Shown here: piece after piece, positions 1 through 14,977 of the stretch
Layout: the number at the start of each line of letters is the position of its first letter
Numbering within the stretch: position 1 is the first letter of the stretch
NCBI RefSeq assembly: GCF_001646865.1
Contig: NZ_LRRB01000059.1
Location: forward strand, 1-45,872
DNA: 45,872 bases
Source: Aldersonia kunmingensis
GTDB lineage: Bacteria; Actinomycetota; Actinomycetes; Mycobacteriales; Mycobacteriaceae
Direction: 5' to 3'
The notes under the pieces: generated by a model
What the model was told of the DNA's origin: nothing
Databases searched by the model: none
What the model saw: the letters and a program-made list of their open reading frames with translations, nothing else
Position numbers and translations under genes: made by a program

Positions 1-450
1 GTAATTGCGGTCCCAGTTGCTGCCGAGTTTGTGGTCGCGGCCATCCGACAGCGGCGGGAGCGGTGGCTCGGCAGCGTGCAAGACATCACGCGTGTCCTGA
101 GTCTGCAGCCGCCAGCCGGAGGCACGGGCGACCGGTCGCGGCGAACCATCCGGCCCGATCGCGAGCAGCTCCGCACCGACCAGTTCGATCTGGCGGCCCG
201 GCCGGAGGACCTCCGACCGCACCCAGAGGTCACCCTCGACGGGCACGGGACCGAGCAGGTCGACGGCGACCCGGCTCAGTCGGGTGTCCGGGCGTGCTTC
301 GCAACGTTCGAGCGCGCGCACGAGCAGCGCCGACGGCGGCGCACCGTGCTGGATGGTCGCGACCCAGGTGCTGATGGTGAACTCGGTCGCGCGGAACTTC
401 TCGCCGAGCGAGTCATCCGCGTCAATCAGCTCGTAATACGAATCAGCCAA
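1..450 (-). CDS. Acyl-CoA thioesterase, hotdog (TesB-like) type, 3' end cut by the window edge
   Basis: The 150 codons inside the window read MADSYYELIDADDSLGEK at the start and end at an Asn-Arg-Tyr sequence at base 1. The fold is the N-terminal half of a double-hotdog thioesterase of the 4HBT_3/TesB kind, with the hallmark HGAPPSALLVRALE helix and the VDLLGPVPVEG strand followed by RPGRQIELVGAELL. Such enzymes hydrolyse acyl-CoA to free acid and CoA. The start is a TTG eight bases after a strong AAGGAGGA site; no ATG is available. It lies 39 bases downstream of the SMP-30-like gene on the same strand, so the two are probably co-transcribed. The C-terminal hotdog lies outside the window. The family call rests on recalled motif patterns. 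Confidence 0.85.
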   Translation of the reverse strand, partial: MADSYYELIDADDSLGEKFRATEFTISTWVATIQHGAPPSALLVRALERCEARPDTRLSRVAVDLLGPVPVEGDLWVRSEVLRPGRQIELVGAELLAIGPDGSPRPVARASGWRLQTQDTRDVLHAAEPPLPPLSDGRDHKLGSNWDRNY

Positions 451-489: not shown

Positions 490-1320
490 TTACGGAAGAC
501 CAGCGCCCGGCACACCCACGGTGACGACATCCAGTTGCGCCTTGTCGGTGCCGATCAGGCGTTCCGGATAAGCCTCGGTAGTCGACAGCAGGAACAGGTC
601 GCGACGCTCCGCACCACCGAGCGCGCACGCGATGGCGATGCGCTCGCCGATGTCGATTCGGTCGGTCACCTCTCCGCCCTCGACGATTCGCTCGAACCGG
701 TTGGCCAGCGTGAGCGCGGTCCACACACCACCGTCCGCATCGAGCGCGATGCCGTCCGGTGGGCCCGAGAGGTTGTCTGCGAAGGCGCGGCGATCCGTGA
801 GGCTGCCGTCCGCGCCGATGGTGAAGGCGGTGAGCCGCCGCCCGGTGGACTCGGCGACGATCAACGTCTCGCCATCGGCGGTGATGACCATGCCATTGGG
901 AAAGTCCAGGTCATCCGCGACAACTGTCGCCGGGTTCTCGCCGTCGTCGCCGGGATCGACGCGCACGATCACTCCGCCGCTGCGCGCCTGCGAGCCGATG
1001 TACGCACGTCCGTGCACGTCCACGACCATGTCGCCGAGCGCCGCAGGCACGAGACTGGAGAGGTCGGCAGCGGCGGTGACGTTGTCACCGTCATAGCGCA
1101 GCAGCTGCCGCGTTTCGGTGGACACGATCAGCAGCGAGCCGTCGGGCCGGAAGCCGAGTCCGGCCGGCCGATGGCCGGGAATCGGCAGTGCGGTCATGGC
1201 CCCGGCCATGGTCACCGTGTGCACCGTCTCGCCGAGCAAATCGGAGAACCAGAGCAGTCCTTCGAACCAGCGGGGACCTTCGCCGAAGCAAAAGCCGTTC
1301 GCCAAGGGTGTGGGCGTCAT
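490..1320 (-). CDS. SMP-30/gluconolactonase/LRE-family protein (probable lactone hydrolase)
   Basis: A 276-residue beta-propeller protein of the SMP-30/gluconolactonase family, which hydrolyses lactones with one bound divalent metal. The family metal ligands are visible: Glu in FCFGEGPRW near residue 15, Asn in DFPNGMV near 145 and Asp in SGPPDGIALDADG near 195. I chose the ATG at 1320 because GGAGGGG precedes it by 5 bases; an in-frame ATG 24 bases upstream has no ribosome site. It is divergent from the long catabolic operon and followed by a thioesterase. Beside a Baeyer-Villiger monooxygenase, a lactone formed by ring expansion is a sensible substrate (inference). Confidence 0.85.
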   Translation of the reverse strand: MTPTPLANGFCFGEGPRWFEGLLWFSDLLGETVHTVTMAGAMTALPIPGHRPAGLGFRPDGSLLIVSTETRQLLRYDGDNVTAAADLSSLVPAALGDMVVDVHGRAYIGSQARSGGVIVRVDPGDDGENPATVVADDLDFPNGMVITADGETLIVAESTGRRLTAFTIGADGSLTDRRAFADNLSGPPDGIALDADGGVWTALTLANRFERIVEGGEVTDRIDIGERIAIACALGGAERRDLFLLSTTEAYPERLIGTDKAQLDVVTVGVPGAGLP

Positions 1321-1346
1321 CGGGTCCCCTCCGGCTGGTCGCATGC

Positions 1347-1375
1347 TTTACAAAACACTGCCCAAGTGTCACGCT
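1347..1375. promoter_or_regulatory. Conserved 29-bp promoter element, copy 1
   Basis: Form TTTACA-N14-TGTCACGCT, between the divergent SMP-30 and NIPSNAP-like genes. The same first six and last nine bases, with identical 14-base spacing, recur at 13104-13132 in the other divergent promoter of this block. TTACA and TGTCA make an imperfect inverted repeat. Copy 1 also holds ACACT-N5-AGTGT (1356-1370). It could be a shared operator or promoter core; the regulator is unknown. Confidence 0.55.
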
Positions 1376-1458
1376 CGTCGGGTGTTCATGTCAACGATTT
1401 CCCCGGCATGCGACATCAATTCCTGCGCACCTGCGACGGCCATCAGTCGGGAGTGACG

Positions 1459-2163
1459 ATGCGGAAGTACCACGAGCACACGCTGCTCTATTTGCACGAG
1501 ACCATCTCGCTCGGCACCGGTCGCAGCGATGGGTTCGTCGAGGTTTTCACCGACATCTATCAGCCGATGATGTCCGAGCTCGGCGCCCGACTGTTCGCGA
1601 CGTGGGAGACCACGCCATACAACGGGCACTGGCCGCAGGTGACCGTGATCTGGGAGATCGACAACTTCGCCGACTACAGCCGGATCGGCCGGGCGCAGGC
1701 GCGCGGCGGCAGCCACGAAGCGGCCTTCGCGAAATGGTCGATGTACCTGTCCGAGATCGGCGCATCGGGCGAGGGCCGCATCATGTACCCCGGCCCGAGC
1801 AACAAGACCTTGGCGCAGCTGCGCGAAGCGAATTTCGGTGCAGGACTGGTGATTCAAGAAATCATGCAGACCAAGCCCGGTAAGCAGGACGATTACATCC
1901 GGGAACTCGAGCGGTTGTACGTGCCATGGTCCGAGCGCACCGGGAAGCGCTGGCTCGGCTCCTTCACCACGACCTTCCGGTTCAACGAGGTGATCCATTA
2001 CTGGGCCCTCGACGGCGACTGGGACTGCTTCGCCGAGCACTACCCGTCGTGGAAGGGTTCCCCGCCCGCCGAGATTGTCACCTGGATGAGTGTCGCTCCC
2101 GCGTTGCGCGACGGCTGGGAGGACGCGATCATGCAGGCGCTCCCGCCGTCGCCGCTGCAGTGA
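1459..2163 (+). CDS. NIPSNAP-like tandem dimeric alpha/beta-barrel protein
   Basis: 234 residues, first gene of a long operon. Two similar halves can be seen: residues about 5-95 (LLYLHETISLGTG, then VTVIWEIDNFADYSRIG) and about 130-215 (LVIQEIMQTKPGKQ, then VIHYWALDGDWDCF). Each has the strand-helix-strand-strand pattern of NIPSNAP/EthD-like ferredoxin-fold domains. Such proteins often sit beside P450 or degradation genes, but their chemistry is rarely known, so no function is assigned. The open frame extends far upstream through the antisense of the SMP-30 gene; the ATG at 1459 is preferred because it begins just after the divergent promoter and the homology-like sequence starts there. The P450 start follows 11 bases after the stop. 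Confidence 0.7.
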   Translation: MRKYHEHTLLYLHETISLGTGRSDGFVEVFTDIYQPMMSELGARLFATWETTPYNGHWPQVTVIWEIDNFADYSRIGRAQARGGSHEAAFAKWSMYLSEIGASGEGRIMYPGPSNKTLAQLREANFGAGLVIQEIMQTKPGKQDDYIRELERLYVPWSERTGKRWLGSFTTTFRFNEVIHYWALDGDWDCFAEHYPSWKGSPPAEIVTWMSVAPALRDGWEDAIMQALPPSPLQ

Positions 2164-2174
2164 AGGTGGTTGCA

Positions 2175-3389
2175 GTGGAAGAATTTTCATACGACCCGTT
2201 CGATTCGGCGGTGATGGCGGACCCGCTGCCCTACTACAAGGTGCTGCGCGATCGCCACCCCGTTTACTACCTGCCCGAGTGGGACACGTACGCGCTGTCC
2301 CGATTCGACGACATCTGGCGAGTCCTCGAGGTTGGCGAGGGCACGTTCGTCGCCTCCGAGGGGACGCTGCCGCCAGCCACCACGTTGGCCAAGCACAACG
2401 ACGGACCGGTGCCGGACCCGCCGTGGCACCCGATGCCGTTCCACGCCGTCTTCGACGCTCCGCTCTACGGAGAAATCCGCCAGGCGCACGGTGCGCCGCT
2501 ACGGCCGCGGTCGGTCACAAAGATGGAAGAGCGGATCCGCACTCTGGCCAATGAGCGGCTCGACGTCCTGCTGGAGCGGGGCACCTTCGACCTCACCCAG
2601 GAGTACGGGGGGATCGTCGCCGCGACGATCGTCTGCGAATTGCTTGGTCTGCCAGAAGAATTGGCCTCGGAAGTGCTTGCCACGGTGAACGCGGGAAGCC
2701 TTGCGAAGCCGAAGAGCGGTGTCGATACGTCGACCGCACGACCCGGATACCTCGAATATCTGGTCCCGGTGGTCCAGCGCCGGCGGGCCGATCGCTCGCA
2801 CGGACCGCTGCCCATCGTGGACGGCCTGATCGACTACCGACTCCCGGACGGCAGTGCGTTCGATGATGTCGAGGCCGCTACCCAACTGCTCGGCATCTTC
2901 ATCGGTGGCACCGAGACAGTGCCGAAGATCGTCGCCCACGGGCTGTGGGAGCTACAGAATCGGCCGGAGCAGCGGGCAGCGGTGGTCGCCGACCTCGAGG
3001 CCAATGTTCCGCTGGCCCGCGACGAGATGATCCGGTACTGCGCACCCGCTCAATGGTTCGCCAGGACCGCCCGCAAGCCGTTCACTTTGCGCGACCACAC
3101 GATCCAGCCGGGGCAACGCATCATCACCCTGATCGCATCGGCCAACCGGGACGAGCGTGAATACCCGGAGCCGGACGAATTCGTCTGGGACAGAGCGAAT
3201 ATTCGCCAACTCGCGTTCGGGCGCGGGCAGCATTTCTGCATCGGCTTCCACCTCGCGCGGCTCGAAATATCGGTCCTTGTATCGGAATGGCTCAAGCGGG
3301 TGCCCGAGTTCGCCGTCGATGAGAAGGGTGCGCAGCGACCCCCGTCGAGTTTCCAGTGGGGCTGGAACAGCGTCCCCGTGGAGGTGTGA
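2175..3389 (+). CDS. Cytochrome P450, first of four in the window
   Basis: 404 residues, a soluble class I bacterial P450. Visible motifs: I-helix GIFIGGTETVPK (the usual acidic-Thr pair is Glu-Thr), K-helix ExxR in DEMIRY, the NRDERE turn, and the heme-thiolate loop FGRGQHFCIG with the Cys ligand. The GTG at 2175 follows AAGGTGG by 5 bases; a GTG at 2160 overlaps the preceding stop but has no ribosome site. No ferredoxin or ferredoxin reductase is encoded nearby, so its electron partners must come from elsewhere. As the first enzyme of the operon it probably hydroxylates the growth substrate (inference). The substrate cannot be read from the sequence. Confidence 0.92.
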   Translation: MEEFSYDPFDSAVMADPLPYYKVLRDRHPVYYLPEWDTYALSRFDDIWRVLEVGEGTFVASEGTLPPATTLAKHNDGPVPDPPWHPMPFHAVFDAPLYGEIRQAHGAPLRPRSVTKMEERIRTLANERLDVLLERGTFDLTQEYGGIVAATIVCELLGLPEELASEVLATVNAGSLAKPKSGVDTSTARPGYLEYLVPVVQRRRADRSHGPLPIVDGLIDYRLPDGSAFDDVEAATQLLGIFIGGTETVPKIVAHGLWELQNRPEQRAAVVADLEANVPLARDEMIRYCAPAQWFARTARKPFTLRDHTIQPGQRIITLIASANRDEREYPEPDEFVWDRANIRQLAFGRGQHFCIGFHLARLEISVLVSEWLKRVPEFAVDEKGAQRPPSSFQWGWNSVPVEV

Positions 3390-3390
3390 C

Positions 3391-4359
3391 ATGTGGTCCT
3401 ACCGACTGGTCGCGCCGTACACATTCGCACGCACCGAGGTACCCGACACCACGGCGGAGCAGCTCGATGATGGGCAGGTGCTGCTTCGCTTCCTCGCGGC
3501 CGGGGTGTGCGGCAGCGACCTGCCGGGATTCCGAGGTACGCAGGGCCGGCTGCCCGGTGACACCGGAACGAACGCCGCGGACATGGCCGGATTTCCGATC
3601 CACGAGATCGTCGGTGAGGTTCTCGCGACCCGCCATCCCGAGCATCGAGTTGGCGATCGAGTGGTCGGGTGGGCGTCGGGATTCAACGGTCTCCAGGAGT
3701 ACGTCTCGGCGGATGGTGACGGGCTCGTCGGGTACGACGCGCGCCTCGAGCCCGCGCACGCCGTGGCGCTGCAGCCGCTCGCCTGTGTGCTCTATGCGCT
3801 CGAGCAATTGCCCGAGATCGACGGGCGCGATGTCGCTGTCATCGGCCAGGGCTCGATCGGCCTGTTGTTTTCCTATGCCGCGAAAGCCCGAGGCGCGCAG
3901 CATGTTACCGGGATCGATCCCATAGAGCGCGCCGATGTCGCGAAGTTGTTCGGAGTCGATACCGCGATACACGCGACAAGTGATCGCTGGGTTCGGCACC
4001 TCGCCGTGGAGGACCGCCCAGATGTCGTCATCGAGGCGGTCGGTCACCAGGTCGCGACGCTGAACCATGCGATCGAGGCGGTCGCGCCGGGCGGCACGGT
4101 CTTCTATTTCGGGGTCCCCGACGACGACAGCTACCCGATCAGCATGCGAACGATGTTGCGCAACAACCTGACCCTGAAGTCGGGTGTCACCCTCGACCGT
4201 CGCAGAGTCCTCGGGCTCGCCGACGAATTCGCCCGCGAACACCCGGGCCTGCTCGCGGACTATGTCACGCATACGTTTGCCGTGAGCGAGACTCAGGACG
4301 CGTTCGAGTTGGCAAGCCGCCCGGTCGCGGGCCGCGTGAAGATCGCGATCGTGCCTTGA
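3391..4359 (+). CDS. Zinc-type medium-chain alcohol dehydrogenase (MDR family)
   Basis: 322 residues. The catalytic-zinc Cys is in GVCGSDLPGFRG (about residue 38) and the usual GHE motif appears as FPIHEIVGEV near residue 71. The four-cysteine structural zinc lobe is absent. A Rossmann segment with VAVIGQGSIGLL lies near residue 149. It is likely to oxidise a secondary alcohol to a ketone, or reduce one, with NAD(P). It begins 1 base after the P450 stop, and its own stop overlaps the TTG of the aldolase gene (TTGA), so expression is probably coupled. It may act on the alcohol made by the P450 (inference). Confidence 0.88.
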   Translation: MWSYRLVAPYTFARTEVPDTTAEQLDDGQVLLRFLAAGVCGSDLPGFRGTQGRLPGDTGTNAADMAGFPIHEIVGEVLATRHPEHRVGDRVVGWASGFNGLQEYVSADGDGLVGYDARLEPAHAVALQPLACVLYALEQLPEIDGRDVAVIGQGSIGLLFSYAAKARGAQHVTGIDPIERADVAKLFGVDTAIHATSDRWVRHLAVEDRPDVVIEAVGHQVATLNHAIEAVAPGGTVFYFGVPDDDSYPISMRTMLRNNLTLKSGVTLDRRRVLGLADEFAREHPGLLADYVTHTFAVSETQDAFELASRPVAGRVKIAIVP

Positions 4360-5147
4360 GCGCGGCGGGTCGTTTCGGCGCTGGATTTGCCGAGCGGGCG
4401 ACGCTCTGGGGTGGCTGGGTGACCGGGCCGAGTTGGCTCGGACCCGAGGAGTTCGCGAAGGCCGGTTACGACTACGTCGGCTTCGACACCCAGCATGGCT
4501 ATCTCGACGATGCCGATGTCGCCATGGTGCTGCGGCGGCTCGAGCATGTCCCGATTGCCACGGCGGTGCGCCTGCCGTCGGCGGCACCCGCGCCGATCGG
4601 GCGCGTCCTCGACGCGGGTGCCGATGCGGTCGTCATCGCCATGGTCGAATCCGCCGAGCAGGCAGCCCAAGCGGTGGCGGCAACCCGGTACGCGCCGCGG
4701 GGCGTGCGCAGTTTCGGTCCATTGCGGGCCGACCTCGGCTATGACATCGACGTGCTCGAGGCGCGCGCCCAGGTTTTCGCGATGGTCGAGACGGCCGTCG
4801 GTGTGGCGGCGGTCGGCGAGATTTGCGCCGTCCCGGGCTTGGCGGGTGTTTACGTCGGCCCCGCCGACCTGGCGATAACGCTGGGTGCGAATCCGGTTCG
4901 CGCGCTGACGGAACCGACAGTGCTCGATGCGATGGCGCGGATCGAGGTGGCGGTGAGTGCGGCAGGGCTAGTTCTCGGCATCCACGCCGGTAGCGGAGCC
5001 GCCGGAAAAGGTCTGGCACAAAGGGGCTATCGAATGATCACGCTTGCGGCGGAATCGCAGGCGCTGCGGCGAGGCGCGGCTGCGCACCTCGCAGAGGCAA
5101 CCGCAGTGGACAACGAGGCCGTCACGGCGCCGGGTGGATACCAATGA
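4356..5147 (+). CDS. HpcH/HpaI-family (class II) aldolase
   Basis: 263 residues. Members cleave or form hydroxy-oxo-acids with a divalent metal and often release pyruvate. Seen here: FDTQHG with the catalytic His near residue 48, LPSAAPAPIGRVLDAGAD carrying the Arg-less substrate loop, metal-site Glu in VFAMVETAVG, and metal-site Asp in YVGPADLAITLG. The start is a TTG overlapping the previous stop; there is no clear ribosome site, consistent with translational coupling. It ends in an ATGA overlap with the next gene. Placed next to an acyl-CoA dehydrogenase pair, it could carry out the final aldol cleavage of a side product (inference). A related 2-dehydro-3-deoxy-sugar aldolase role is possible. 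Confidence 0.85.
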   Translation: MSAAGRFGAGFAERATLWGGWVTGPSWLGPEEFAKAGYDYVGFDTQHGYLDDADVAMVLRRLEHVPIATAVRLPSAAPAPIGRVLDAGADAVVIAMVESAEQAAQAVAATRYAPRGVRSFGPLRADLGYDIDVLEARAQVFAMVETAVGVAAVGEICAVPGLAGVYVGPADLAITLGANPVRALTEPTVLDAMARIEVAVSAAGLVLGIHAGSGAAGKGLAQRGYRMITLAAESQALRRGAAAHLAEATAVDNEAVTAPGGYQ

Positions 5148-6118
5148 CGGTAATCACCTCCACTGAACTGGATTTGCTGCGGGCGGCGACACGAGAGTTG
5201 CTTGCCGAGCGCTTCGCCGGCGACACCGAACCGACACCCGACGAGTGGTCCGCGAGTTGGGCTGCGCTGGCCGAACTCGGGGCGTGGTCGACGCTCGAAC
5301 CGCCGGACGGCTCGTTGGCCGCCGCATGCGTAGTAGCCGAGGAGCTCGGCCGGGCGCTGTATGCGGGACCTGCCGCGGAGACGCTTGCCGCCACGGTGCT
5401 GGCCACCCAGCTCGAGCGCGTAGCGCAGTCTGCCGCTTCGGCCGTCTTCATCGGCGGCATCGAGGGTGAACAGATCGTGGCGCCGGCGCCGAACACGTCG
5501 GTCATCGCTGCGACCGAGGGCGGGAATCTCGTTGCAGTGCATTTCGACGCGGTCGAGAGCAAGCCGGTAACGACTCTCGACGTCACTCGGACGTTCTCGG
5601 CGATTCGCATCGACCCCACGGCACCTCGTGTGGTGACAAACGTCGCGGAGACCGCGAGGGACGCGGCCGCGGTCCGCCGACTGCTCTACTGCGCGGACAC
5701 CGCGGGAGCGATCACGCGGGTTCTCGACCGCACCGTCGAGTACGCCGGGCAACGAACGACATTCGGCGTACCGATCGGCAAGTACCAGGCAGTGGCGCAC
5801 CGGCTCGTCGACCACACCATCACGCTGCGTCAGCTTGGGCTGCTCATCGCCGACGCAGGCGCGGCATACGACAACCCCGCCGGCAGCGACGGCGATTTCG
5901 CGGACCGCGTTGCCATGGCCGAGACGTTCTGCTGCGACCGTTCCGCCGACCTGCTCAGCGACTGCATTCAGCTCAGCGGCGCGATCGGCTTCACCTGGGA
6001 GTACGGGCATCACTTCGCGCTACGGCGCGCGGTGCAGAACACCGTGGTTCTGGGCGGTTCGCGTTCGGCGCGCACTCGGCTCGCCGAGGCCGAATCGTGG
6101 GGAAAGGCGACGCGATGA
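5144..6118 (+). CDS. Acyl-CoA dehydrogenase, short subunit of a probable heteromer
   Basis: 324 residues, shorter than the usual 380-400. The N-terminal helical and beta-barrel regions are weakly conserved, but the C-terminal FAD motif is present: YAGQRTTFGVPIGKYQAVAH, where Arg and Phe-Gly belong to the FAD-pyrophosphate site. The C-terminal catalytic Glu position is LGGSRS, with Gly. The neighbouring long subunit lacks this RxxFG motif. In mycobacterial steroid degradation such split pairs form alpha2beta2 enzymes in which each FAD site is completed by both chains (known for the ChsE/FadE heteromers). It overlaps both neighbours by ATGA, favouring equal synthesis. Confidence 0.85.
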   Translation: MTVITSTELDLLRAATRELLAERFAGDTEPTPDEWSASWAALAELGAWSTLEPPDGSLAAACVVAEELGRALYAGPAAETLAATVLATQLERVAQSAASAVFIGGIEGEQIVAPAPNTSVIAATEGGNLVAVHFDAVESKPVTTLDVTRTFSAIRIDPTAPRVVTNVAETARDAAAVRRLLYCADTAGAITRVLDRTVEYAGQRTTFGVPIGKYQAVAHRLVDHTITLRQLGLLIADAGAAYDNPAGSDGDFADRVAMAETFCCDRSADLLSDCIQLSGAIGFTWEYGHHFALRRAVQNTVVLGGSRSARTRLAEAESWGKATR

Positions 6119-7287
6119 CCGCGGACATTGACGAGTTCCGCACACAGGTCCGGAAGTTCATCGAGGCAAATGCTCCAGACGGGACCTGGAGTGACGGCGT
6201 TCGAGTGCCGCGTGACGCGGAAACCGAACGGCGAGTGCGTGATTGGTACGTGGCGCTGTTCGAGGTTGGCTACATCGGCGGCGGCTGGCCGGAACGGCAC
6301 GGCGGCCGTGCCGGTCACACGCCGCGCCACGACGCGGTCGTGATGGAGGAAATCGTCCGCGCTCGCGTGCCGCGCCCGATCGATCAGGTGCTGCTCGCCG
6401 CGCATCTGATCATCACGTTCGGCACCGATGAACAGCACCAGCGCTACCTGCCGCGGATCCGTTCAGCCAAGGACATCTGGTGCCAGCTCTTCAGCGAGCC
6501 CGGTGTCGGCAGTGACCTCGCGCGGTTGACCACGAAGGCGATCCGGCTGCCCGACGGAAACTTTCGCGTCGACGGGCAGAAGGTGTGGACGACCGATGGC
6601 CAGTGGGCTCAGGGAGGTGTGCTGCTCGCGCGAACGGACTCCGCAGCGAAACCGCATGCCGGACTGACGGTGTTCCTGCTCGATATGAGTACACCGGGCG
6701 TCGACGTTCGGCCGATCCGCGAAATGACCGGCTCGGCCGAGTTCTGCGAGGTCTATCTCGACGATGTCATCGTTCCCGAGACGCAGGTGCTCGGCGAAGT
6801 CAACCGCGGTTGGGGCGTGGTCAATTCGGGGCTCGCATCGGAACGCGCCTACGTCGGCGCGAACGCGGTGATGCTCGACCTGCTATTCGATGACCTCATC
6901 GAGCTGGCGCAGTACATCGAGTTACCCGGCGGGACCAGCGCCATCGAGGATCCGGTCATCCGCGACGGGATCGCCGGAATCCGCGCGAGGGTGGGCGCGG
7001 TCGCGCTCATCGCCGCCGAAGCGGTGGAGAAGCTGGGCACCGGTACCGACGACCCCGCCGACGGCCTGATCGCCAAGCTCGCCTATACCGAGTTGAACGT
7101 GGCCATGTGTGCCCACGCCATGACGATTCTGTCCGCGGGAGTGCTGCGCCCCGAAGGCGAGCCCGTGCATGCGCGTTGGCGACAGGCATTTCTGTGGTCG
7201 CGCGCGCTCACCATCTCGGGGGGCTCATCGGAGATCGTGCGCAATGTGTTGGCGACGCAGCTACTAGGGCTGCCCAGGTCGTGGTGA
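6115..7287 (+). CDS. Acyl-CoA dehydrogenase, long subunit of a probable heteromer
   Basis: 390 residues with the complete acyl-CoA dehydrogenase layout: N-terminal helices with GGWPERHGG near residue 60, the central substrate/FAD barrel with CQLFSEPGVGSDLA and KVWTTDGQWA, and a C-terminal helical domain ending in ISGGSSEIVRNVLA. The classical catalytic Glu of the YEG motif is Gly here; Glu243 in ASERAY aligns by eye with the alternative base of isovaleryl-CoA dehydrogenase-like enzymes. It lacks the RxxFG motif that the short partner has. The ATG at 6115 overlaps the previous TGA and follows GGGGAAAGG. Probable role: alpha,beta-desaturation of a bulky acyl-CoA made from the opened ring (inference). 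Confidence 0.9.
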   Translation: MTADIDEFRTQVRKFIEANAPDGTWSDGVRVPRDAETERRVRDWYVALFEVGYIGGGWPERHGGRAGHTPRHDAVVMEEIVRARVPRPIDQVLLAAHLIITFGTDEQHQRYLPRIRSAKDIWCQLFSEPGVGSDLARLTTKAIRLPDGNFRVDGQKVWTTDGQWAQGGVLLARTDSAAKPHAGLTVFLLDMSTPGVDVRPIREMTGSAEFCEVYLDDVIVPETQVLGEVNRGWGVVNSGLASERAYVGANAVMLDLLFDDLIELAQYIELPGGTSAIEDPVIRDGIAGIRARVGAVALIAAEAVEKLGTGTDDPADGLIAKLAYTELNVAMCAHAMTILSAGVLRPEGEPVHARWRQAFLWSRALTISGGSSEIVRNVLATQLLGLPRSW

Positions 7288-7292
7288 GGACG

Positions 7293-7688
7293 ATGACCGA
7301 TTACGAACGAATCCGCGATCTGCTGGCCGGGTACGCGCTGCTGCTCGACGCCGACGATATCGACGGTTGCCTCGAATTATTCACCGACGACGCCGAATTC
7401 GCGGTATTCGGCAGGGTGCTCGGCGGGCGCGAAAAGATCCGCCGGATGCTGACCGGCGCTCCGCGCGGCGTGCATCTCACCGGTGCGCAGCTGATCGAGG
7501 TGCGTGACCACACGGCGACCGCTCGGACCCAGTTGCTGTTCGTGGACGCGGGCACCCACGAAATGCGACCGGCCTTGTACGACGACGAATTGGTAGTCAC
7601 CGATGGCGCTTGGCGTTTCCGGCGAAGGCAGTGCCGATTCATCACCACCGAGGGACTGCGCGACACCCCGCAGGAGCGTGTGCTGTGA
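7293..7688 (+). CDS. SnoaL-like (NTF2-fold) protein
   Basis: 131 residues. The cone-shaped NTF2 fold is indicated by IRDLLAGYALLLDADDIDG, then CLELFTDDAEFAVFGRVLGG and the final strands with WRFRRRQCRFI. Members are isomerases, hydratases or cyclases in polyketide and steroid pathways, or small non-catalytic partners. A GTG at 7284 overlapping the previous stop (GTGA) is an alternative start; both choices give nearly the same protein. Its last codons overlap the SDR start. An isomerase or hydratase role after desaturation is possible but cannot be read from the sequence. Confidence 0.78.
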   Translation: MTDYERIRDLLAGYALLLDADDIDGCLELFTDDAEFAVFGRVLGGREKIRRMLTGAPRGVHLTGAQLIEVRDHTATARTQLLFVDAGTHEMRPALYDDELVVTDGAWRFRRRQCRFITTEGLRDTPQERVL

Positions 7689-8422
7689 ACGCGGAAGACA
7701 ACCGGGTAGCGCTCGTCACGGGCGCCGCGCGCGGGCAGGGCGCTGCGATTGTGACGCAACTGCTTGCCGACGGGTTTCGGGTCGCGGCCTGCGACGTGCT
7801 CGTCGATGAAATGAAGGACAGTGTTGCAGCGCACAATGATTCGCGGGTCATCGCGATACCGCTCGATGTCACCAGCGAGGAGCAGTGGGCTGCTGCGGTG
7901 CGTCGAACGGTCGACGAGTTCGGTGCGCTGACCGGGCTGGTCAACAACGCAGGCGTGCTGCATCGTGCCTCGATCGCGGACGAAACCGTCGCCGGGTTCG
8001 AGGGCAGCTGGCGAGTAAATTGCCTTGGTCCCTTCCTCGGGACGCGCGCGGCATTGGACGAACTACGCCGCGCAGAGAGCGGCGCCATCGTCAACACGAG
8101 CAGCACTAGCGCGGTGCGACCGTTCCCGAACCACACCGCCTACGGTTCGGCGAAATGGGCGCTGCGCGGGCTGACCCAGATCACCGCGGCCGAATTGGCG
8201 CCGTCGGGCATCCGCGTCAACGCTGTCATTCCCGGAGCGGTCGACACACCCATGCTGGACGAGTCGGTCATCGCGGGACTCGCGGCACGGGCCGTGGCGG
8301 GACGGATAGCCAGTCCAGTCGAGATCGCGGACGCGGTCGCCTTTTTGCTCTCCGATCGCGCGAAGTTCATCAACGGCGCGGAACTCGTAATCGACGGTGG
8401 CCAGTCGCTGCAAATCGGCTGA
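7685..8422 (+). CDS. Short-chain dehydrogenase/reductase (SDR)
   Basis: 245 residues of the classical SDR type. Seen: cofactor loop TGAARGQG at about residues 12-19, NNAG near 82, catalytic Ser in VNTSSTS, and YGSAK with catalytic Tyr and Lys near 145. The C-terminal INGAELVIDGG is the usual ending. The start GTG overlaps the SnoaL-like stop. It probably oxidises a hydroxyl to the ketone used by the downstream Baeyer-Villiger enzyme, or reduces a ketone (inference). It lacks the extra insert of the mycofactocin-type SDR at 17533. Confidence 0.9.
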   Translation: MNAEDNRVALVTGAARGQGAAIVTQLLADGFRVAACDVLVDEMKDSVAAHNDSRVIAIPLDVTSEEQWAAAVRRTVDEFGALTGLVNNAGVLHRASIADETVAGFEGSWRVNCLGPFLGTRAALDELRRAESGAIVNTSSTSAVRPFPNHTAYGSAKWALRGLTQITAAELAPSGIRVNAVIPGAVDTPMLDESVIAGLAARAVAGRIASPVEIADAVAFLLSDRAKFINGAELVIDGGQSLQIG

Positions 8423-8461
8423 CCAACCACTATCCCGGACCACACTGATACGGAGGCTCGA

Positions 8462-9991
8462 ATGATCGGTGCAGGCGGCAAAACCCTGTCGGTGGGCATT
8501 ATCGGCGCCGGCCCCGGTGGCCTTGCGCTGGGAATCTTTCTGCGCAAGGCAGGGTTTCGCGACTTCACTATCTTCGACCGCGAGGACGGCGTCGGCGGCA
8601 CCTGGCGGATCAACCACTACCCCGGCCTCGCGTGCGATGTGAAGTCGCACCTTTACTCGTTCTCTTTCGACCTGAATGCGAACTGGTCGCGATTGTGGTC
8701 CGGGCAGGCGGAGATCCTCGAGTACTTCGAGCGGTGCGCCGACCGCTATGAACTCGGCAAGCATTTGCGACTGAATACCGAAATCACCTCGGCAGCCTGG
8801 GATTCCGTCAGCGAAACATGGCTGTTGACCACGAGCGCCGGAGCTGAGCACCGCTTCGATGTCGTGATCTCCGCTGTGGGACTGTTTACCCAGCCGGTGA
8901 TGCCAGACCTCGTCGAGGAGGAGCCGTTCACCGGCACTCTGATGCACTCGTCGCGGTGGGACGATTCGGTGCAGATCGAAGGGGCCCGGGTCGCGGTATT
9001 GGGCACCGGTTCCACTGCTGCACAGGTAATTCCGGAGCTTGCGAAGGTAGCCGAGCAGGTCTACTCGGTGCAGCGATCGCCCACCTGGATCCTGCCGAAG
9101 CCGGACCGGCCCTACACCGACCGAGAGCGGTGGGTCTTTGCCAACGTGCCGTTCGCGAAGAAGTACTACCGAACTCGACTGTGGCTCACGAGCGAACAGA
9201 ACATCGGGGTGATCGAGCACGGCAGCGACAAGACGCAGGCGTTCAAGGGCGTTGCGGAGCGAATGCTGGCGAGGACGGTCGCGGACGAGGAACTGCGACA
9301 GCGACTGACACCGGAGCACCCGCTTGGCTGCAAGCGGTTGGTGTTCTCCTCGGATTTCATCAAGGCGCTCACCCGGCCGAATGTCGAGGTCGTGTCCAGT
9401 CCGGCCCGAGTACTGCGGGCCCGCTCGCTGGTCACGGCGGACGGTACCGAACGTGAGGTCGACGTCGTGGTGTGCGCGACCGGCTACGCGGCCGCCGACT
9501 ATCTCGGCGAGATCGACGTGCGCGGCGAGGGCGGTGCGGCACTGCACGACGTCTGGCGTGACGGTGCCTTCGCGTACCTGGGCATGGCGGTACCGGGATT
9601 CCCGAACTTCTTCATGCTCTACGGCCCGAACACGAATGTGGGGTCGAACAGCGTCATCTTCGTGCTCGAGGCTCAGGCGCGCTACATCGTCCGGGCGCTG
9701 CGCCATATGCGCCGCCGCCGCAAAACGTATGTCGCCGTCCGGCCGGAGGCGATGGCGGAGTTCGGCCGCAAGATCGACAAGTGGATGGTCGGCACCGTGT
9801 GGACGACGCGGTGCAGCAGCTACTTCCGGAGCGCCAACGGCAGAGTCGTGACGCAATGGCCGCGCAGCGCGCGGGCGTTCTGGGGCATGACACGTAGATT
9901 CCGGCCCGCGGACTATTACCTCGAGGCGGCGCCGGCGCAGCCCGGCGAGACGACGTGGACACCGCAAACACACTCGATCATGACGGGATAG
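8462..9991 (+). CDS. Baeyer-Villiger-type flavin monooxygenase
   Basis: 509 residues. Two Rossmann motifs, GAGPGGLALG (FAD, about residue 16) and VLGTGSTAAQ (NADPH, about 180), flank the type I fingerprint FTGTLMHSSRWDD (FxGxxxHxxxW). The segment NHYPGLACDVKSHLYSFSF is also typical. Such enzymes insert one oxygen of O2 next to a ketone, giving an ester or lactone. The start is supported by GGAGG 7 bases upstream. The esterase gene begins 4 bases after its stop, and an SMP-30 lactonase gene lies in the divergent operon, so ketone to ester or lactone to hydroxy acid is the obvious reading (inference). Confidence 0.92.
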   Translation: MIGAGGKTLSVGIIGAGPGGLALGIFLRKAGFRDFTIFDREDGVGGTWRINHYPGLACDVKSHLYSFSFDLNANWSRLWSGQAEILEYFERCADRYELGKHLRLNTEITSAAWDSVSETWLLTTSAGAEHRFDVVISAVGLFTQPVMPDLVEEEPFTGTLMHSSRWDDSVQIEGARVAVLGTGSTAAQVIPELAKVAEQVYSVQRSPTWILPKPDRPYTDRERWVFANVPFAKKYYRTRLWLTSEQNIGVIEHGSDKTQAFKGVAERMLARTVADEELRQRLTPEHPLGCKRLVFSSDFIKALTRPNVEVVSSPARVLRARSLVTADGTEREVDVVVCATGYAAADYLGEIDVRGEGGAALHDVWRDGAFAYLGMAVPGFPNFFMLYGPNTNVGSNSVIFVLEAQARYIVRALRHMRRRRKTYVAVRPEAMAEFGRKIDKWMVGTVWTTRCSSYFRSANGRVVTQWPRSARAFWGMTRRFRPADYYLEAAPAQPGETTWTPQTHSIMTG

Positions 9992-9995
9992 CGAC

Positions 9996-10952
9996 ATGGA
10001 CACCACCGATGTGCTGGCGCGGCTCGATCCGGCGCTCGTGCACCTTGCCGCAGCGCGGACCAACCTGTCGACGGAACTCATTCCAGCCATACGGGATTCG
10101 ATCAATCTCCGTCGACGAGAGGGTGTGGCCGCGATCTCTGCGACCGGCGTCCGGATCGAGGATGCCGTCGTCCCCGGTTCGGGAGAGATCCGGGTGCGGA
10201 TCTACCGCGGTGGTCCGGCACCCGCTCCGGCCGTGCTCTACCTGCACTCAGGGGCCTTCGTACTGGGCAATCTCGACACCGATCACCGGCAGTGCGTGGA
10301 ACTCGCACGCCGCGCGGAGTGCACCGTCGTGTCGGTCGACTATCGCCTGGCCCCGGAGCACCCGTTCCCCGCTGCACTCGACGACGCGATCGACACGCTG
10401 AACTGGATTGCCGCGGAAGCAGAGTCGCTTGGCATCGATGCGGGCCGCATAGCGGTGGCAGGCAACAGCGCCGGCGGCGCGCTGGCAGCGCTGTTGGCTC
10501 AACAGTCCACGGACGGGTCGGTTCCGTCGCTCGTGTTTCAGCTGCTGCATCAACCGGTGCTCGATGACCGGCCCATGCCGTCCAAGGAGGAATTCGATAT
10601 CACGCCCGGATTCGACGGTCCGGCAACCGAACTCATGTGGCAGCACTATCTGCACGACACCCGGCCGAGTGACGCGTCGGTTCCCGGTCGCCGCGAGGAA
10701 CTGGCCGGATTGCCGCGAGCCTTTGTGTCCTGCTCCGAGCTCGATCCGCTGCGCGACGAGGCGATCGACTACGCCGTGCGGCTGCTGATGGCAGGTGTCG
10801 CGACGGATCTCCATGTGTTCGCGGGTACCTGCCACGGATTCGATTCGCTGGTTCCCGGGTGGGAAACAAGCGAGCGGCTATTCGAGATGCAGGGCACCGC
10901 GCTGCGGGCGGCGCTGCATTCGAGCAACCTTGCGGTGCACATACCCGCGTGA
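9996..10952 (+). CDS. Alpha/beta hydrolase of the HSL esterase family
   Basis: 318 residues. Nucleophile elbow GNSAGG near residue 155, catalytic Asp in ELDPLRDEA and His in TCHGFDSL. The oxyanion-loop HGG motif of the family reads YLHSGAF, so the second residue is Ser rather than Gly. Members hydrolyse carboxylic esters in the cytoplasm. It starts 4 bases after the monooxygenase stop and very probably hydrolyses that enzyme's product (inference from the well-known BVMO-esterase pairing). Confidence 0.9.
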   Translation: MDTTDVLARLDPALVHLAAARTNLSTELIPAIRDSINLRRREGVAAISATGVRIEDAVVPGSGEIRVRIYRGGPAPAPAVLYLHSGAFVLGNLDTDHRQCVELARRAECTVVSVDYRLAPEHPFPAALDDAIDTLNWIAAEAESLGIDAGRIAVAGNSAGGALAALLAQQSTDGSVPSLVFQLLHQPVLDDRPMPSKEEFDITPGFDGPATELMWQHYLHDTRPSDASVPGRREELAGLPRAFVSCSELDPLRDEAIDYAVRLLMAGVATDLHVFAGTCHGFDSLVPGWETSERLFEMQGTALRAALHSSNLAVHIPA

Positions 10953-10964
10953 TGCAGTGATTCC

Positions 10965-11345
10965 ATGCAGTTGAATCAGGTGACGATCGGAGCGACGGAC
11001 CTCGAGCGCGCCGAACACTTCTACACGCTGCTGGGCCTGCACTTGATCGTTCGCGACGACGACTATCTGCGATTCGAATGCCCGACGGGAGGCAGTACCT
11101 TTTCCGTCGAACGAGTTCCGGCGGTCAGCGCAAACGAGCAGGTAAGCGTCTATTTCGAAACCGACCACCTCGACAGCGAATGCGAGCGTCTGCGGGAAGC
11201 TGGTGTCGTCTTCAGTCTGCCGCCCACCGATATGCCGTGGCTCTGGCGCGAAGCCCGACTCCATGACCCCGAGGGCCACAATCTCGTCCTCTTCCATGCC
11301 GGGGACAACCGCCGAAATCCGCCCTGGCGACTGACGGACGCCTAG
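10965..11345 (+). CDS. VOC-family (glyoxalase/dioxygenase fold) protein
   Basis: 126 residues, last gene of the operon. The two beta-alpha-beta-beta-beta modules begin with LNQVTIGATDLERAEHFYTLLG and VSVYFETDHLDSECERLREAG, and it ends with the usual HDPEGHNLVLFH. Metal-site candidates include Glu in the last module (PEGH) and Glu154-type residues missing from the short chain, so activity is uncertain. Superfamily members are isomerases, epimerases, dioxygenases or binding proteins. It is convergent with the SRPBCC gene, only 18 bases away, with no obvious terminator between them. Confidence 0.8.
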   Translation: MQLNQVTIGATDLERAEHFYTLLGLHLIVRDDDYLRFECPTGGSTFSVERVPAVSANEQVSVYFETDHLDSECERLREAGVVFSLPPTDMPWLWREARLHDPEGHNLVLFHAGDNRRNPPWRLTDA

Positions 11346-11861: not shown

Positions 11862-13082
11862 TCAGACTTCGTGCGTTGAATCGGCGCGAACACTGCTGTC
11901 GCGCAGGCCTTCCCGTAGCGCGGCGACGGTGTCGAGGTCGTCGAGTGCCGCGACCGTGCGGTCGAGTCCGGTGAGTGCGATCTCCTCGTCCTGCATTCCA
12001 CCGAGTCCAGCCGTGATCAGCGCGGCGACAAAGGCGTAGGACGCGGCCTGGCGATAGCGATAGCGCAGTTCGTCGTAGTCGAACAGTGGGCCGCCCGCGG
12101 CGGAGAGAGCGTGCCGGTATCGCTCGAGCAGATCACGCTCGTGCGCTCGCCGATCGACTGTGGTCATCCCGGTAACCAGCGTGTATGCCAAGTCTCGGGT
12201 GGGGTGACCGCGCCGAACCGCCTGCCAGTCGAGCAGGCCGACCCGGTCACCGCGGATATAGCAGTTGCCGGGGTGCGCGTCACCGTGCAGGACGGTGTGC
12301 GGCGCGGCGTCGATCAGCCGAGCCACCGGGATGTAGTTGTCGATGATGAAGCGGCCGGTCTCGATCGGGATCGGGGTCTTCCCGGACAGGCTCTTCACCG
12401 ATCGCCGCATCATCGAACCGACGAGCGGGACGCTCGGGTCTGCCGATCCGGCATGCAACCAGCCGAGTGGCGCACCGGCGTGTCCCTCCGCCGGCAACCG
12501 GCCCCAGAAGGTGCCATGCACGTGCGCGAGTGTGTCCACTAGTTGTGCCGCCCGATTCGGATCGAGCGGGTGCACAGTGTCGGGGAATTCGCAGCCAAGG
12601 ACCGCGAGATCCTCCAGCACGATGACGAATCGCCCTGTGGCGGAGTCGAATGCGGACCCGTGCATGCGCGGAACGCCTTCAAGCTCACCGGAGAGTTCGG
12701 TGTAAAAGCGCACTTCGGTCTCGGCAAGCCGAGCGAGTTCGCCGATGAATCGGTTACCGAGCGTCTTGGCCGTCACCTTCACGAACACTGTGCTCGGCAC
12801 GCCTTCACCAGTGAGTGCCAGTCGGGCATGCGTGGTTGTACCGGCGGTGCCGCCGAGCCGGGTCACCGAGGCGACCGGTCGCCGCAGTATCTCCGACAGC
12901 GTCGTGGCGTCGAGATCTTCCACCCCGCGCGGGAACGCCCGCGCGCCGCGTAGCACGCCGTCGGTGGCGATCCGTGCCGCGCCGCGGCCAAGATGAGCGG
13001 CCAGTGCGACCAGCGGAACGGCCCGCTCCCGGGCACGCGCGGCCATCGATCCGGATCCGGCGTTAGCGCTCAAATCGACCAC
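11862..13082 (-). CDS. Phosphotransferase-family (APH/ecdysteroid-kinase-like) protein
   Basis: 406 residues. The kinase catalytic loop VLHGDAHPGNCYI and the metal-binding segment GLLDWQAVRRGHP near residue 290 mark an aminoglycoside-phosphotransferase-like fold. Neighbours in degradation gene sets suggest a small-molecule hydroxyl as substrate rather than an antibiotic (inference). The GTG at 13082 is the longest choice; a TTG at 13073 sits at better spacing after AAAGGGTGG, and an ATG at residue 13 is also possible. A second member of the family lies at 30259. It is divergent from a P450 gene, sharing a promoter with the conserved 29-bp element. Confidence 0.8.
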   Translation of the reverse strand: MVDLSANAGSGSMAARARERAVPLVALAAHLGRGAARIATDGVLRGARAFPRGVEDLDATTLSEILRRPVASVTRLGGTAGTTTHARLALTGEGVPSTVFVKVTAKTLGNRFIGELARLAETEVRFYTELSGELEGVPRMHGSAFDSATGRFVIVLEDLAVLGCEFPDTVHPLDPNRAAQLVDTLAHVHGTFWGRLPAEGHAGAPLGWLHAGSADPSVPLVGSMMRRSVKSLSGKTPIPIETGRFIIDNYIPVARLIDAAPHTVLHGDAHPGNCYIRGDRVGLLDWQAVRRGHPTRDLAYTLVTGMTTVDRRAHERDLLERYRHALSAAGGPLFDYDELRYRYRQAASYAFVAALITAGLGGMQDEEIALTGLDRTVAALDDLDTVAALREGLRDSSVRADSTHEV

Positions 13083-13103
13083 CCTTTCGACGCAAACCCA
13101 ACC

Positions 13104-13132
13104 TTTACAGATCGGGTCATAAATGTCACGCT
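13104..13132. promoter_or_regulatory. Conserved 29-bp promoter element, copy 2
   Basis: Same TTTACA-N14-TGTCACGCT layout as 1347-1375, again midway between divergent catabolic genes (kinase-like protein to the left, P450 to the right). The 14 spacer bases differ between copies, so the shared ends look selected rather than copied. Confidence 0.55.
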
Positions 13133-13181: not shown

Positions 13182-14387
13182 GTGACGATTTCGAAGGTGA
13201 ATTTCGATCCGTTCTCCGAGGATTACTTCAACGATCCGCACGAGACGTACCGGCGCCTTCGGGACGAAGCGCCCCTTTTCTACAGCGAGCAATACGACTT
13301 CTATGCGCTGAGCCGGCACGAGGATGTCGCGGCCGCGTTCAAGGACTTCGAGACCTTTTCCTCGGCTGACGGCATCACGCTGGCGGACTTCCAGGAGGAC
13401 CGCCCGCCCAATCAACCCTCGATCATCATGATGGATCCGCCCGACCACCGGCAGTTGCGCAGCCTGGTCAACAAGGTGTTCACTCCGCGCGCGATCCAGG
13501 CTCAAGAGCCGCTGGTCCGTCAGTTGGTTGGCCACTACCTGTCGCAGGTCGATCCGGCCGGCTTCGACGCCGTAGCGGATTTCTCGGCGCTGTTCCCGGT
13601 CGAAGTCATCACCACGATGCTCGGCGTGCCGGAGGAGCACCACCAGAACATTCGGACCTGGCTGGACGTCAGCTTGACGCGCCAGCCGGGCGAAATCGGC
13701 GTGAGCCAGGCGGGCCTCGACGCGATGATCCAGACGGCGATGGTCTACTTCGGCGTCATCGGAGACCGTCGCGCAGAGCCGCGCGACGACATGATTTCCC
13801 GATTGATCTCCACCGAGGTCGAACGCGACGACGGAGGGTCGAAGACCCTCGATGACATCGAGATCGCGGGCTTCGCGACACTGCTCGGCGGTGCCGGTGC
13901 GGAGACGGTGACCAAGCTCGTCGGCTCCGCAGTGGTCCTATTCGCGCGCCATCCAGATCAGTGGGCACAGTTGCTCGCGGATCGATCCCTTATCCCGTCC
14001 GCCATCGAAGAAGTGCTGCGCTATGCCGCGCCCGCGCAGTACGCCATGCGATCGACCCGCCGCGACGTCGAACTGCACGGCACGACGATTCCGGCCGGGA
14101 AGCCGGTCATGCTGATCGAGGCGTCGGCCAACCGTGACGAGCGGGCGTTCACCGACGCCGACCGCTTCGATATCAGTCGCGACCGTTCGCAGGCGCAGAA
14201 CCTCGGGTTTGGCTACGGCATCCACAGTTGCCTCGGCGCGGCCCTTGCGCGGATGGAAAGTGCGATCGCATTCGAGCATCTGCTCGATTTCATGCCGGAA
14301 TACGAGGTCGACTTCGACAACCTGCGTCGCGTGAATATGACCAGCGTTGCCGGCTATTCGAATGTCCCTGTCCACGTGCGACGTTGA
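13182..14387 (+). CDS. Cytochrome P450, second of four
   Basis: 401 residues. I-helix GGAGAETVTKL, ExxR in EEVLRY, the NRDERAF turn and heme loop FGYGIHSCLG are all present. The MMDPPDHRQLRSLVNKVFTPR segment is typical of bacterial P450s acting on small lipophilic molecules. The GTG at 13182 follows GGAAGGG by about 8 bases. No redox partner is adjacent. It heads a short transcript with the unknown gene at 14450. The substrate is unknown; shared promoter element with the first operon suggests a related pathway (inference). Confidence 0.92.
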   Translation: MTISKVNFDPFSEDYFNDPHETYRRLRDEAPLFYSEQYDFYALSRHEDVAAAFKDFETFSSADGITLADFQEDRPPNQPSIIMMDPPDHRQLRSLVNKVFTPRAIQAQEPLVRQLVGHYLSQVDPAGFDAVADFSALFPVEVITTMLGVPEEHHQNIRTWLDVSLTRQPGEIGVSQAGLDAMIQTAMVYFGVIGDRRAEPRDDMISRLISTEVERDDGGSKTLDDIEIAGFATLLGGAGAETVTKLVGSAVVLFARHPDQWAQLLADRSLIPSAIEEVLRYAAPAQYAMRSTRRDVELHGTTIPAGKPVMLIEASANRDERAFTDADRFDISRDRSQAQNLGFGYGIHSCLGAALARMESAIAFEHLLDFMPEYEVDFDNLRRVNMTSVAGYSNVPVHVRR

Positions 14388-14449
14388 GCCGCTAAACCGC
14401 GAACACGTACCCGCAAACCGTGACCACCCTTCGAACGAAACGGGAATCG

Positions 14450-14977
14450 ATGCCTGCGCAAACCATCGAACTGGCCACCGCCCGGCAGGTCCGCCGCAAC
14501 GGCGCGAGCCGTGCTGCTCACCGGCTCGACGTGATCGCCCACGATGTCGCGGAGGTGATCTCCTCAGCGGGCGGAACCCTCTTCGATCGGGCGCTCGGTG
14601 GCTGGGAAGTCTGCGTCTACACCGCTGACGCAGAAGGCTCCCGGGCGCTGCGCATTCTCGGCGTGACCGGGTTGCCGTTCGAGCAGGGCATCGCGTCCGC
14701 CGGTCGGGGCCCACAGGCACTCGCGGTGTCGGCTGCCGCGCTGGCAACCGACGAACGGGTGCGCGATTACCTCTCGGCCGTGCTCGAGCTCGGCGATATC
14801 GAGGTGACGATCTTCGGCGAGGGGCTTCCCACGATGCGGACCGCAGCGGGTCCGGCTCTTCGTCGAATGAGCTTGGCGGCGAAGGCTTTCAAGGGCCACG
14901 CCCTCGACGCCGCGGCAATTCCGCACGGCGACATCGAGCGCGAGGAGTACTTCGCGGCGGAGTGTATCGGCTTCTAG
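14450..14977 (+). CDS. Protein of unknown function, 175 residues
   Basis: I do not recognise this family. The ATG at 14450 follows a weak GGGA; a GTG at 14420 would add ten residues. The chain has no signal peptide or membrane segment. It looks mixed alpha/beta, with RAAHRLDVIAHDVAEVISSAGG as an amphipathic helix, the strand WEVCVYTADA, an Ala-rich helix at about 85-110, and LELGDIEVTIFGE. It lies 62 bases after the P450 stop and may be co-transcribed with it. Its compact, Gly-Ala-rich make-up resembles small regulatory or binding domains, but no function is proposed. Confidence 0.55.
   Translation: MPAQTIELATARQVRRNGASRAAHRLDVIAHDVAEVISSAGGTLFDRALGGWEVCVYTADAEGSRALRILGVTGLPFEQGIASAGRGPQALAVSAAALATDERVRDYLSAVLELGDIEVTIFGEGLPTMRTAAGPALRRMSLAAKAFKGHALDAAAIPHGDIEREEYFAAECIGF

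Follow-up and report, generated by a model that had tools for sequence, protein, structure and literature searches.

Ring opening by cytochromes P450 (P450s) and Baeyer-Villiger monooxygenases (BVMOs) is known from the camphor, 1,8-cineole and cyclohexanone routes. Non-phosphorylative sugar-acid pathways combine a short-chain dehydrogenase (SDR), an SMP-30 lactonase and an HpcH aldolase, which form their usual set, with an MR/MLE dehydratase. A hypothetical scheme for SAR202, as given in the part of the paper available, has a P450, a dehydrogenase, a BVMO and a lactonase or esterase act on a sterol-type lipid (PMC5395668). Here we describe an eleven-gene operon at positions 1459-11345 (+) of a 45,872-nucleotide stretch of Aldersonia kunmingensis DNA (NZ_LRRB01000059.1). 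This stretch, hereafter the window, is an entire contig (C29) of a 5.6 Mb draft genome. We tentatively read the locus as a catabolic operon within a small regulon of Aldersonia and Mycobacterium, whose core would oxidise and open a cyclic compound without coenzyme A (CoA) and split the product with an aldolase, a reading to which we give somewhat less than an even chance.

Distribution and conserved core of the operon

The initial annotation had described eleven coupled genes, and all the families that it named were found, with the overlaps that it listed and no internal gap longer than 39 bases. The predicted operon is more than a chance arrangement, its core gene order being found again in Mycobacterium at 52-88% protein identity. 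Orthologous loci were collected by a BVMO scan of genome contigs; the best 80 of at least 567 confirmed relatives define 80 named loci, some of them truncated and 69 with full flanks, in which orthology was called by chosen identity thresholds. These loci hold a BVMO by construction, loci without one being excluded, a bias corrected by the set of 44 genomes described below. By record title, 54 loci are from Mycobacterium, 22 from Mycolicibacterium, 3 from Mycobacteriaceae and 1 from Aldersonia. In the other Aldersonia genome (Aldersonia sp. NBC_00410; genome G001, locus L041), the BVMO is 83% identical to that of the window. Nocardia and Rhodococcus had been proposed for comparison; orthologues were found instead in Aldersonia and Mycobacterium.

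An orthologue of the operon's aldolase (E<=1e-50) is present in 44 of 401 genomes of the family, belonging to 2 of its 31 genera, and among 394 genomes sampled across the class, all 23 that carry it belong to the same family. The first P450 of the operon (P450a) has orthologues (E<=1e-150) in 44 of the 401 genomes as well, the two sets being identical as judged by comparing the lists by eye. In 3 of the 44 (G029, G151 and G216), P450a is encoded in trans, together with a NIPSNAP partner and another P450, of family c16. This co-inheritance even when P450a lies at a separate locus is the strongest sign that P450a and the aldolase share a task. A BVMO orthologue (E<=1e-180) occurs in 38 of the 44 genomes.

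Among the 80 named loci, the SDR is found in 80, the esterase in 79, the alcohol dehydrogenase (ADH) in 78, the aldolase in 77, P450a in 69, the NIPSNAP-like protein in 66, the SMP-30/gluconolactonase-type lactonase (SGL) in 53 and the SnoaL-like protein in 24. The pair of acyl-CoA dehydrogenase (ACAD) subunits is present in two (L057 and L104), and the VOC protein in none of the 80. The counts for the 69 loci with full flanks are 69 for the ADH, 67 for the aldolase, 60 for P450a, 59 for NIPSNAP, 48 for SGL and 2 for the ACAD pair. In the M. sphagni/M. rhodesiae group (nine named loci and G029), the operon starts with the ADH gene and lacks NIPSNAP and P450a at that place. The conserved core consists of NIPSNAP, P450a, ADH, aldolase and SDR, with the BVMO, a LipW-type esterase, the lactonase and a thioesterase in most of these loci.

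A plasmid collection was considered as the source of a named equivalent and rejected, the best BVMO and aldolase matches being 48% and 42% identical; the plasmid neighbourhoods L114-L116 held no further core gene at the level of orthologues. In one of them, a Rhodococcus sp. USK10 plasmid (L114, 6497-14184), the neighbours of the distant aldolase (42%), judged by eye from the translations, resemble an MFS transporter, an SDR, an oxidoreductase and two amidohydrolases.

Predicted enzymes and the suggested acyl-CoA ending

The operon opens with the NIPSNAP-like gene (1459..2163; PF07978, E=3.4e-6), whose end overlaps P450a (2160..3389; PF00067) in a GTGA. The heme motif is present in 68/68 P450a orthologues, and the best solved chains are CYP130. 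The ADH that follows (3391..4359; PF00107, PF08240) is a medium-chain zinc-type alcohol/polyol dehydrogenase, nearest to alcohol, threonine and polyol dehydrogenases. Its orthologues carry the motif CGSD (76/76) and, in 57/76 cases, the HExxG pattern, and the structural-zinc loop CxxCxxCx7C was found in 0/76. The SDR (7685..8422; PF13561) overlaps the SnoaL-like gene in a GTGA and keeps YxxxK in 78/78 orthologues.

The aldolase gene (4356..5147; PF03328, E=2.2e-27), which overlaps the ADH gene in a TTGA, encodes a class II HpcH/HpaI-type enzyme whose solved relatives are HpcH/HpaI hydroxyketoacid aldolases (6r62, E=5.7e-33). The residues that we take to be catalytic, His, Arg, Glu and Asp, align with those of the solved relatives; the His, Arg and Asp motifs are kept in 77/77 orthologues and the Glu motif in 68/77. 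Scores against the named equivalogs (HpaI, GarL and 2-keto-3-deoxy-L-rhamnonate aldolase) were 65-104, for cutoffs of 369-441, and the protein reached the cutoff of none of the named equivalogs that it matched. As a predicted family member, it groups with the 2-oxo-acid aldolases.

The BVMO (8462..9991) was assigned from solved relatives and its fingerprint. The former comprise cyclohexanone, steroid and phenylacetone monooxygenases and OTEMO; FxGxxxHxxxW(P/D) is found in 81/81 orthologues and GxGxxG in 80/81. It is a predicted type I Baeyer-Villiger monooxygenase. Next to it lies an HSL-family esterase (9996..10952; PF07859), a close relative of LipW (3qh4 'Esterase LipW', E=4.3e-117), in which the strict GxSAGG pattern is found in 39/72 orthologues. 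The last gene codes for a VOC/glyoxalase-like protein (10965..11345; PF00903). Divergent from the operon are the SGL gene (490..1344, - strand; PF08450, E=6.4e-44), for which a start at ~1320 is also possible, and a thioesterase-like gene of the 4HBT_3 type (1..450, - strand; PF13622, E=9.6e-17). Both had been noted before, and the thioesterase is partial, being cut by the contig end. The SGL motifs GEGP and PNG are found in 48/48 orthologues and PDG(I/M) in 40/48, and the nearest solved chain gives E=3e-11. A thioesterase orthologue lies near the operon in 48/69 loci with full flanks and in 52/80 named loci.

A P450, an ADH, a BVMO and an esterase are the enzymes of subterminal oxidation as in the acetone and methyl-ketone pathways, in which an open-chain compound is converted to a secondary alcohol, a ketone, an ester and finally an acid plus an alcohol. 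All four are present here, and the HSL-type esterase adjoins the BVMO. Such a route would nevertheless leave no task for the lactonase, the SDR and above all the aldolase, and the best solved matches of the BVMO are the cyclohexanone, steroid and phenylacetone enzymes; we hold it to be quite unlikely.

Alternatively, the operon could break down a decorated polyol, a cyclitol or a sugar acid by a non-phosphorylative route, with the SDR forming a lactone, the SMP-30 enzyme hydrolysing it, an acid dehydratase and the aldolase completing the breakdown, and the P450 and BVMO only stripping a decorating group. The presence of SDR, SMP-30 lactonase and HpcH aldolase together, and the affinity of the ADH to alcohol, threonine and polyol dehydrogenases, speak for such a pathway. 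So does an enolase-superfamily gene that occupies the place of the BVMO and esterase genes in L136 (5853-7046, -) and L137 (10857-12050, +). Its nearest solved relative is 1rvk (E=6.7e-68), and its top curated models are acid-sugar dehydratases, all far below cutoff. Relatives of this acid-dehydratase-like gene were found in 6 of the 44 genomes, never more than a few kb away from the operon and in four near the BVMO. On the other side, the 38 other genomes, that of the window included, hold no relative at E<=1e-40, in a search that covered this dehydratase family only, and P450a is the aldolase's strictest partner. We consider a sugar-acid pathway unlikely.

In the initial annotation, an alicyclic ketone became a hydroxy acid, which was activated with CoA, passed through a heteromeric ACAD and cleaved as acyl-CoA by the aldolase. 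The small ACAD subunit (5144..6118), in which Pfam recognises the C-terminal ACAD domain only, overlaps the aldolase gene in an ATGA, and the large subunit (6115..7287; PF02770, PF02771, PF00441) overlaps the small one likewise; the SnoaL-like gene follows (7293..7688; PF13577, E=2.7e-21). This translational coupling of the pair, SnoaL and other genes in the window argues for an ACAD step, as do a CoA-transferase and another ACAD, encoded near the operon in roughly half of the named loci. However, the pair is accessory. It occurs in 2/80 loci, and a large-subunit orthologue (at least 60% identity) in 2 of the 44 genomes with aldolase and P450a, the window's included; 14 further genomes of the 44 have only relatives of 41-48% identity, and no match was found in the other Aldersonia. 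A concatenated ADH+SDR+BVMO tree (82 rows; built by a quick method that left 17 of 78 inner branches open) requires at least three changes for the large subunit, and no single clade unites the window, L057 and L104.

In [Mycobacterium] fortunisiensis (G138), the module stands alone, in the order TetR, second P450 (P450b, 67% identity), small ACAD (47%), large ACAD (67%), SnoaL (61%) and an AMP-forming CoA ligase; the genes from P450b to the ligase occupy L138 (G138:C5) 5368-10747, and a degenerate copy of the promoter-like element described below lies upstream at L138 5225. The window copy therefore has the appearance of the main operon into which a second module, ACAD pair plus SnoaL, was inserted between aldolase and SDR. 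We reject the ACAD pair as a core step on these counts, on the tree and on its separate locus in G138. Two candidates for the missing CoA activation of the window were also discarded, since neither the CaiB-type CoA-transferase (best match 39%) nor the CoA ligase from G138 (34%) has an orthologue in this genome. In fast growers, the esterase gene is followed by a gene of 417 amino acids that single linkage had grouped with the CoA-transferases; it proved to be a distinct protein and was set aside, and, judged by eye, it resembles a MinD/ParA-type ATPase.

We know of no 2-oxo-acid aldolase that acts on acyl-CoA. Because the ACAD pair is rare and the aldolase of the 2-oxo-acid type, acyl-CoA cleavage is unsupported as the core of the pathway, and with the CoA-transferase lacking an orthologue in this genome the full CoA-dependent sequence appears very improbable. 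The pair itself is of the kind described for mycobacterial heteromeric ACADs of the IpdE1-IpdE2 type, with a short partner, recognised by its C-terminal domain only, beside a full-length one. It differs in that the small subunit scores 94 against its best curated model, IpdE2 (NF050027), far under the cutoff of 450, and in that the pair is accessory to an operon.

A promoter-like element upstream of the operon

The intergenic region between SGL and NIPSNAP contains a 50-base block (window 1346-1395) that is gap-free in 46/46 such regions, 44 of them distinct. A scan with this block revealed that a shorter core, CTTTACA-N14-TGTCACGCT, also precedes other genes. The window holds two exact matches, at 1346..1375 (+) and 13103..13132 (+), for 0.14 expected at up to three mismatches. 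Across 114 loci (2.2 Mb), CTTTACA is followed by TGTCAC after a gap of 14 bases 207 times, and after gaps of 8-13 or 15-22 bases not once. These counts show conservation and not separate origins, related loci not being independent, and raw site counts are slightly inflated by repeated genomes (L023/L041, L044/L142 and L153/L154).

The element lies upstream of the operon in 69/69 loci with full flanks. The first operon gene is at most 120 bases away in 47 of the 69, a gene of family c8 intervenes in 21, and the distance is 1357 bases in one (L084). The next gene after 177 exact sites is c8 in 55 cases, which makes it the commonest, followed by NIPSNAP (35), P450 c16 (26), ADH (10), ACAD c11 (8) and P450b (2); of the remaining sites, 18 precede unclustered genes, 16 have no gene in range and 7 are single cases. 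In 10/26 c16 and 7/8 c11 cases, only 6-7 bases separate CACGCT, in the right-hand half of the element, from the called start codon, the geometry of leaderless mycobacterial transcripts; before NIPSNAP the distance is 23-83 bases. These start-codon distances, like the lack of a gene in range at 16 sites, rest on a gene caller that misplaced the NIPSNAP start in the window. Several P450, ACAD and thioesterase genes are among those that follow the element, a further point against a sugar-acid pathway.

With at most one mismatch, the element occurs genome-wide 4 times in this genome, 4 times in the other Aldersonia, and 7, 3 and 4 times in G138, G029 and G051. It was thus present in 5/5 scanned genomes that bear the operon, versus 1/10 that do not, and a reversed control pattern gave 2 matches across the 15 genomes. 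The operon-less genome with the element, G124, has three sites beside SGL, c8 and a TetR gene of family c14 (L156, G124:C1), and this locus has probably lost the operon. The separate G029 locus with c16, NIPSNAP and P450a lies behind one of that genome's three sites. The other two sites of the genome that holds the window, an exact one at C11:53302 and one with a single mismatch at C30:14267 (L150 7375-8670), both precede PF04909 amidohydrolases; at the former (L149 6376-9361), a DUF427 gene follows the amidohydrolase and a thioesterase gene is divergent.

As a putative sigma70-type promoter, the element would be written TTTACA-N17-CACGCT with TGT before CACGCT, which is poor as a -10 box. Its dyad is weak (12/30 positions), and the element is found in 22/22 divergent regions between TetR c14 and c16. 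It reads as the putative promoter of a small regulon, and its strict letters may reflect either an alternative sigma factor or repression, for instance by TetR c14. ECF41 promoters carry the signature TGTCACA-n16-CGTC in the part of the source available, and thus share TGTCAC with the element (PMC3426412). Compared with what is given there, TGTCACG is here the right-hand box, with CTTTACA 14 bases upstream, and CGTC is barely above control. An ECF41 promoter was rejected, CGTC standing at the right distance (n16, +/-1) in 11/177 sites and at a control distance in 7/177. Among the matches listed in the open-access literature for CTTTACA and TGTCACGCT, no description of the element was found, those for TGTCACGCT leading to ECF41 promoters and a primer.

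The second copy in the window lies 49 bases before P450b (13182..14387, +; PF00067); P450b stands 1.8 kb behind the operon and is followed by a c8 gene (14450..14977, +). No Pfam match was found for c8, taken as the longer frame 14420-14977. Its structure model (predicted local distance difference test 84.3) aligns with 6iiy at Z 13.6 and a root mean square deviation of 2.7 over 147 residues, and c8 is predicted to have an LmbE/PIG-L-like fold. HPDD, the zinc motif of LmbE/PIG-L deacetylases, is absent from the majority consensus of 36 c8 sequences. Between the operon and P450b, an APH/ecdysteroid-kinase-like phosphotransferase is encoded at 11862-13082 (-), with orthologues near the operon in 10/80 named loci. 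Further along the window is a very long open frame of 1835 codons (37613-43120, -).

Several P450 genes and a phosphotransferase gene nearby might be expected of a biosynthetic or detoxifying tailoring cluster, as opposed to a growth pathway. Yet no synthase core is found among the eleven genes, and a 2-oxo-acid aldolase accompanied by dehydrogenases points to breakdown; we regard a tailoring cluster as highly unlikely.

A proposed ring-opening route and its relation to known systems

In the chain that we infer, substrate and order of steps included, P450a would hydroxylate a probably cyclic and hydrophobic substrate, the ADH would oxidise the alcohol to a ketone and the BVMO would insert oxygen into the latter; the gene set and the element themselves are tool results. 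The esterase and the SMP-30 lactonase would open the resulting ester or lactone to a hydroxy acid. The SDR, helped by the enolase-superfamily acid dehydratase where present, may then yield a 4-hydroxy-2-oxo acid, which the aldolase would cut into an aldehyde and either pyruvate or a related 2-oxo acid. The core would need no CoA, the ACAD pair and SnoaL representing a separate inserted module. The progression from alcohol through ketone and ester or lactone to hydroxy acid, as initially annotated, is thus in keeping with the coupled oxidative operon, the type I BVMO, the linkage of ADH, BVMO and esterase and the lactonase in 53/80 loci, while its acyl-CoA end is not upheld.

Several observations weigh against a CoA-free ring-opening core. 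The six genomes of the 44 without a BVMO orthologue (E<=1e-180) retain NIPSNAP-P450a-ADH-aldolase-SDR; in three of them (L132, L136 and L137), where the stretch was read, the esterase is absent too, and two of the 80 loci (L091 and L101) miss the aldolase. The chain therefore cannot be identical everywhere. A CaiB-type CoA-transferase lies near the operon in 41/80 named loci and ACAD c11 in 44/80; with the thioesterase (52/80), they may serve a CoA phase. All solved relatives of the ADH are distant (best E=3e-16), and the sugar-acid-like enzymes fit a polar substrate equally well as an alicyclic one.

A bolder proposal, which we find doubtful, is that a dedicated regulator or alternative sigma factor with the unrecorded signature CTTTACA-N14-TGTCACGCT runs the regulon of this CoA-free route, and that related substrates are accommodated through optional modules (ACAD pair plus SnoaL, acid dehydratase, CoA-transferase). 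If the proposed route is correct, ring opening would end in a 2-oxo-acid aldolase instead of beta-oxidation, in an operon that recurs across environmental and opportunistic mycobacteria. The element would offer a handle on it, listing the regulon genome by genome and making regulator and inducer testable.

The combination of genes had not been recognised by the initial annotation, and in the open-access literature (titles and abstract starts, among the matches listed) no operon with this gene set or role was found, nor any described equivalent. The SAR202 scheme, in the part of the paper available, proposes the same order of chemistry; it involves type II BVMOs, in contrast to the type I enzyme and the single operon with an aldolase found here (PMC5395668). 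Three of the four families of the non-phosphorylative sugar-acid pathways are in the operon, and a relative of the fourth is in 6 of the 44 genomes; what the operon adds to them is a P450, a BVMO and an esterase. With the camphor, 1,8-cineole and cyclohexanone routes, it shares hydroxylation, an alcohol dehydrogenase, a type I BVMO that aligns with cyclohexanone monooxygenase and OTEMO, and lactone or ester hydrolysis, and it differs from them by its class II aldolase, its NIPSNAP protein and its SMP-30 lactonase.

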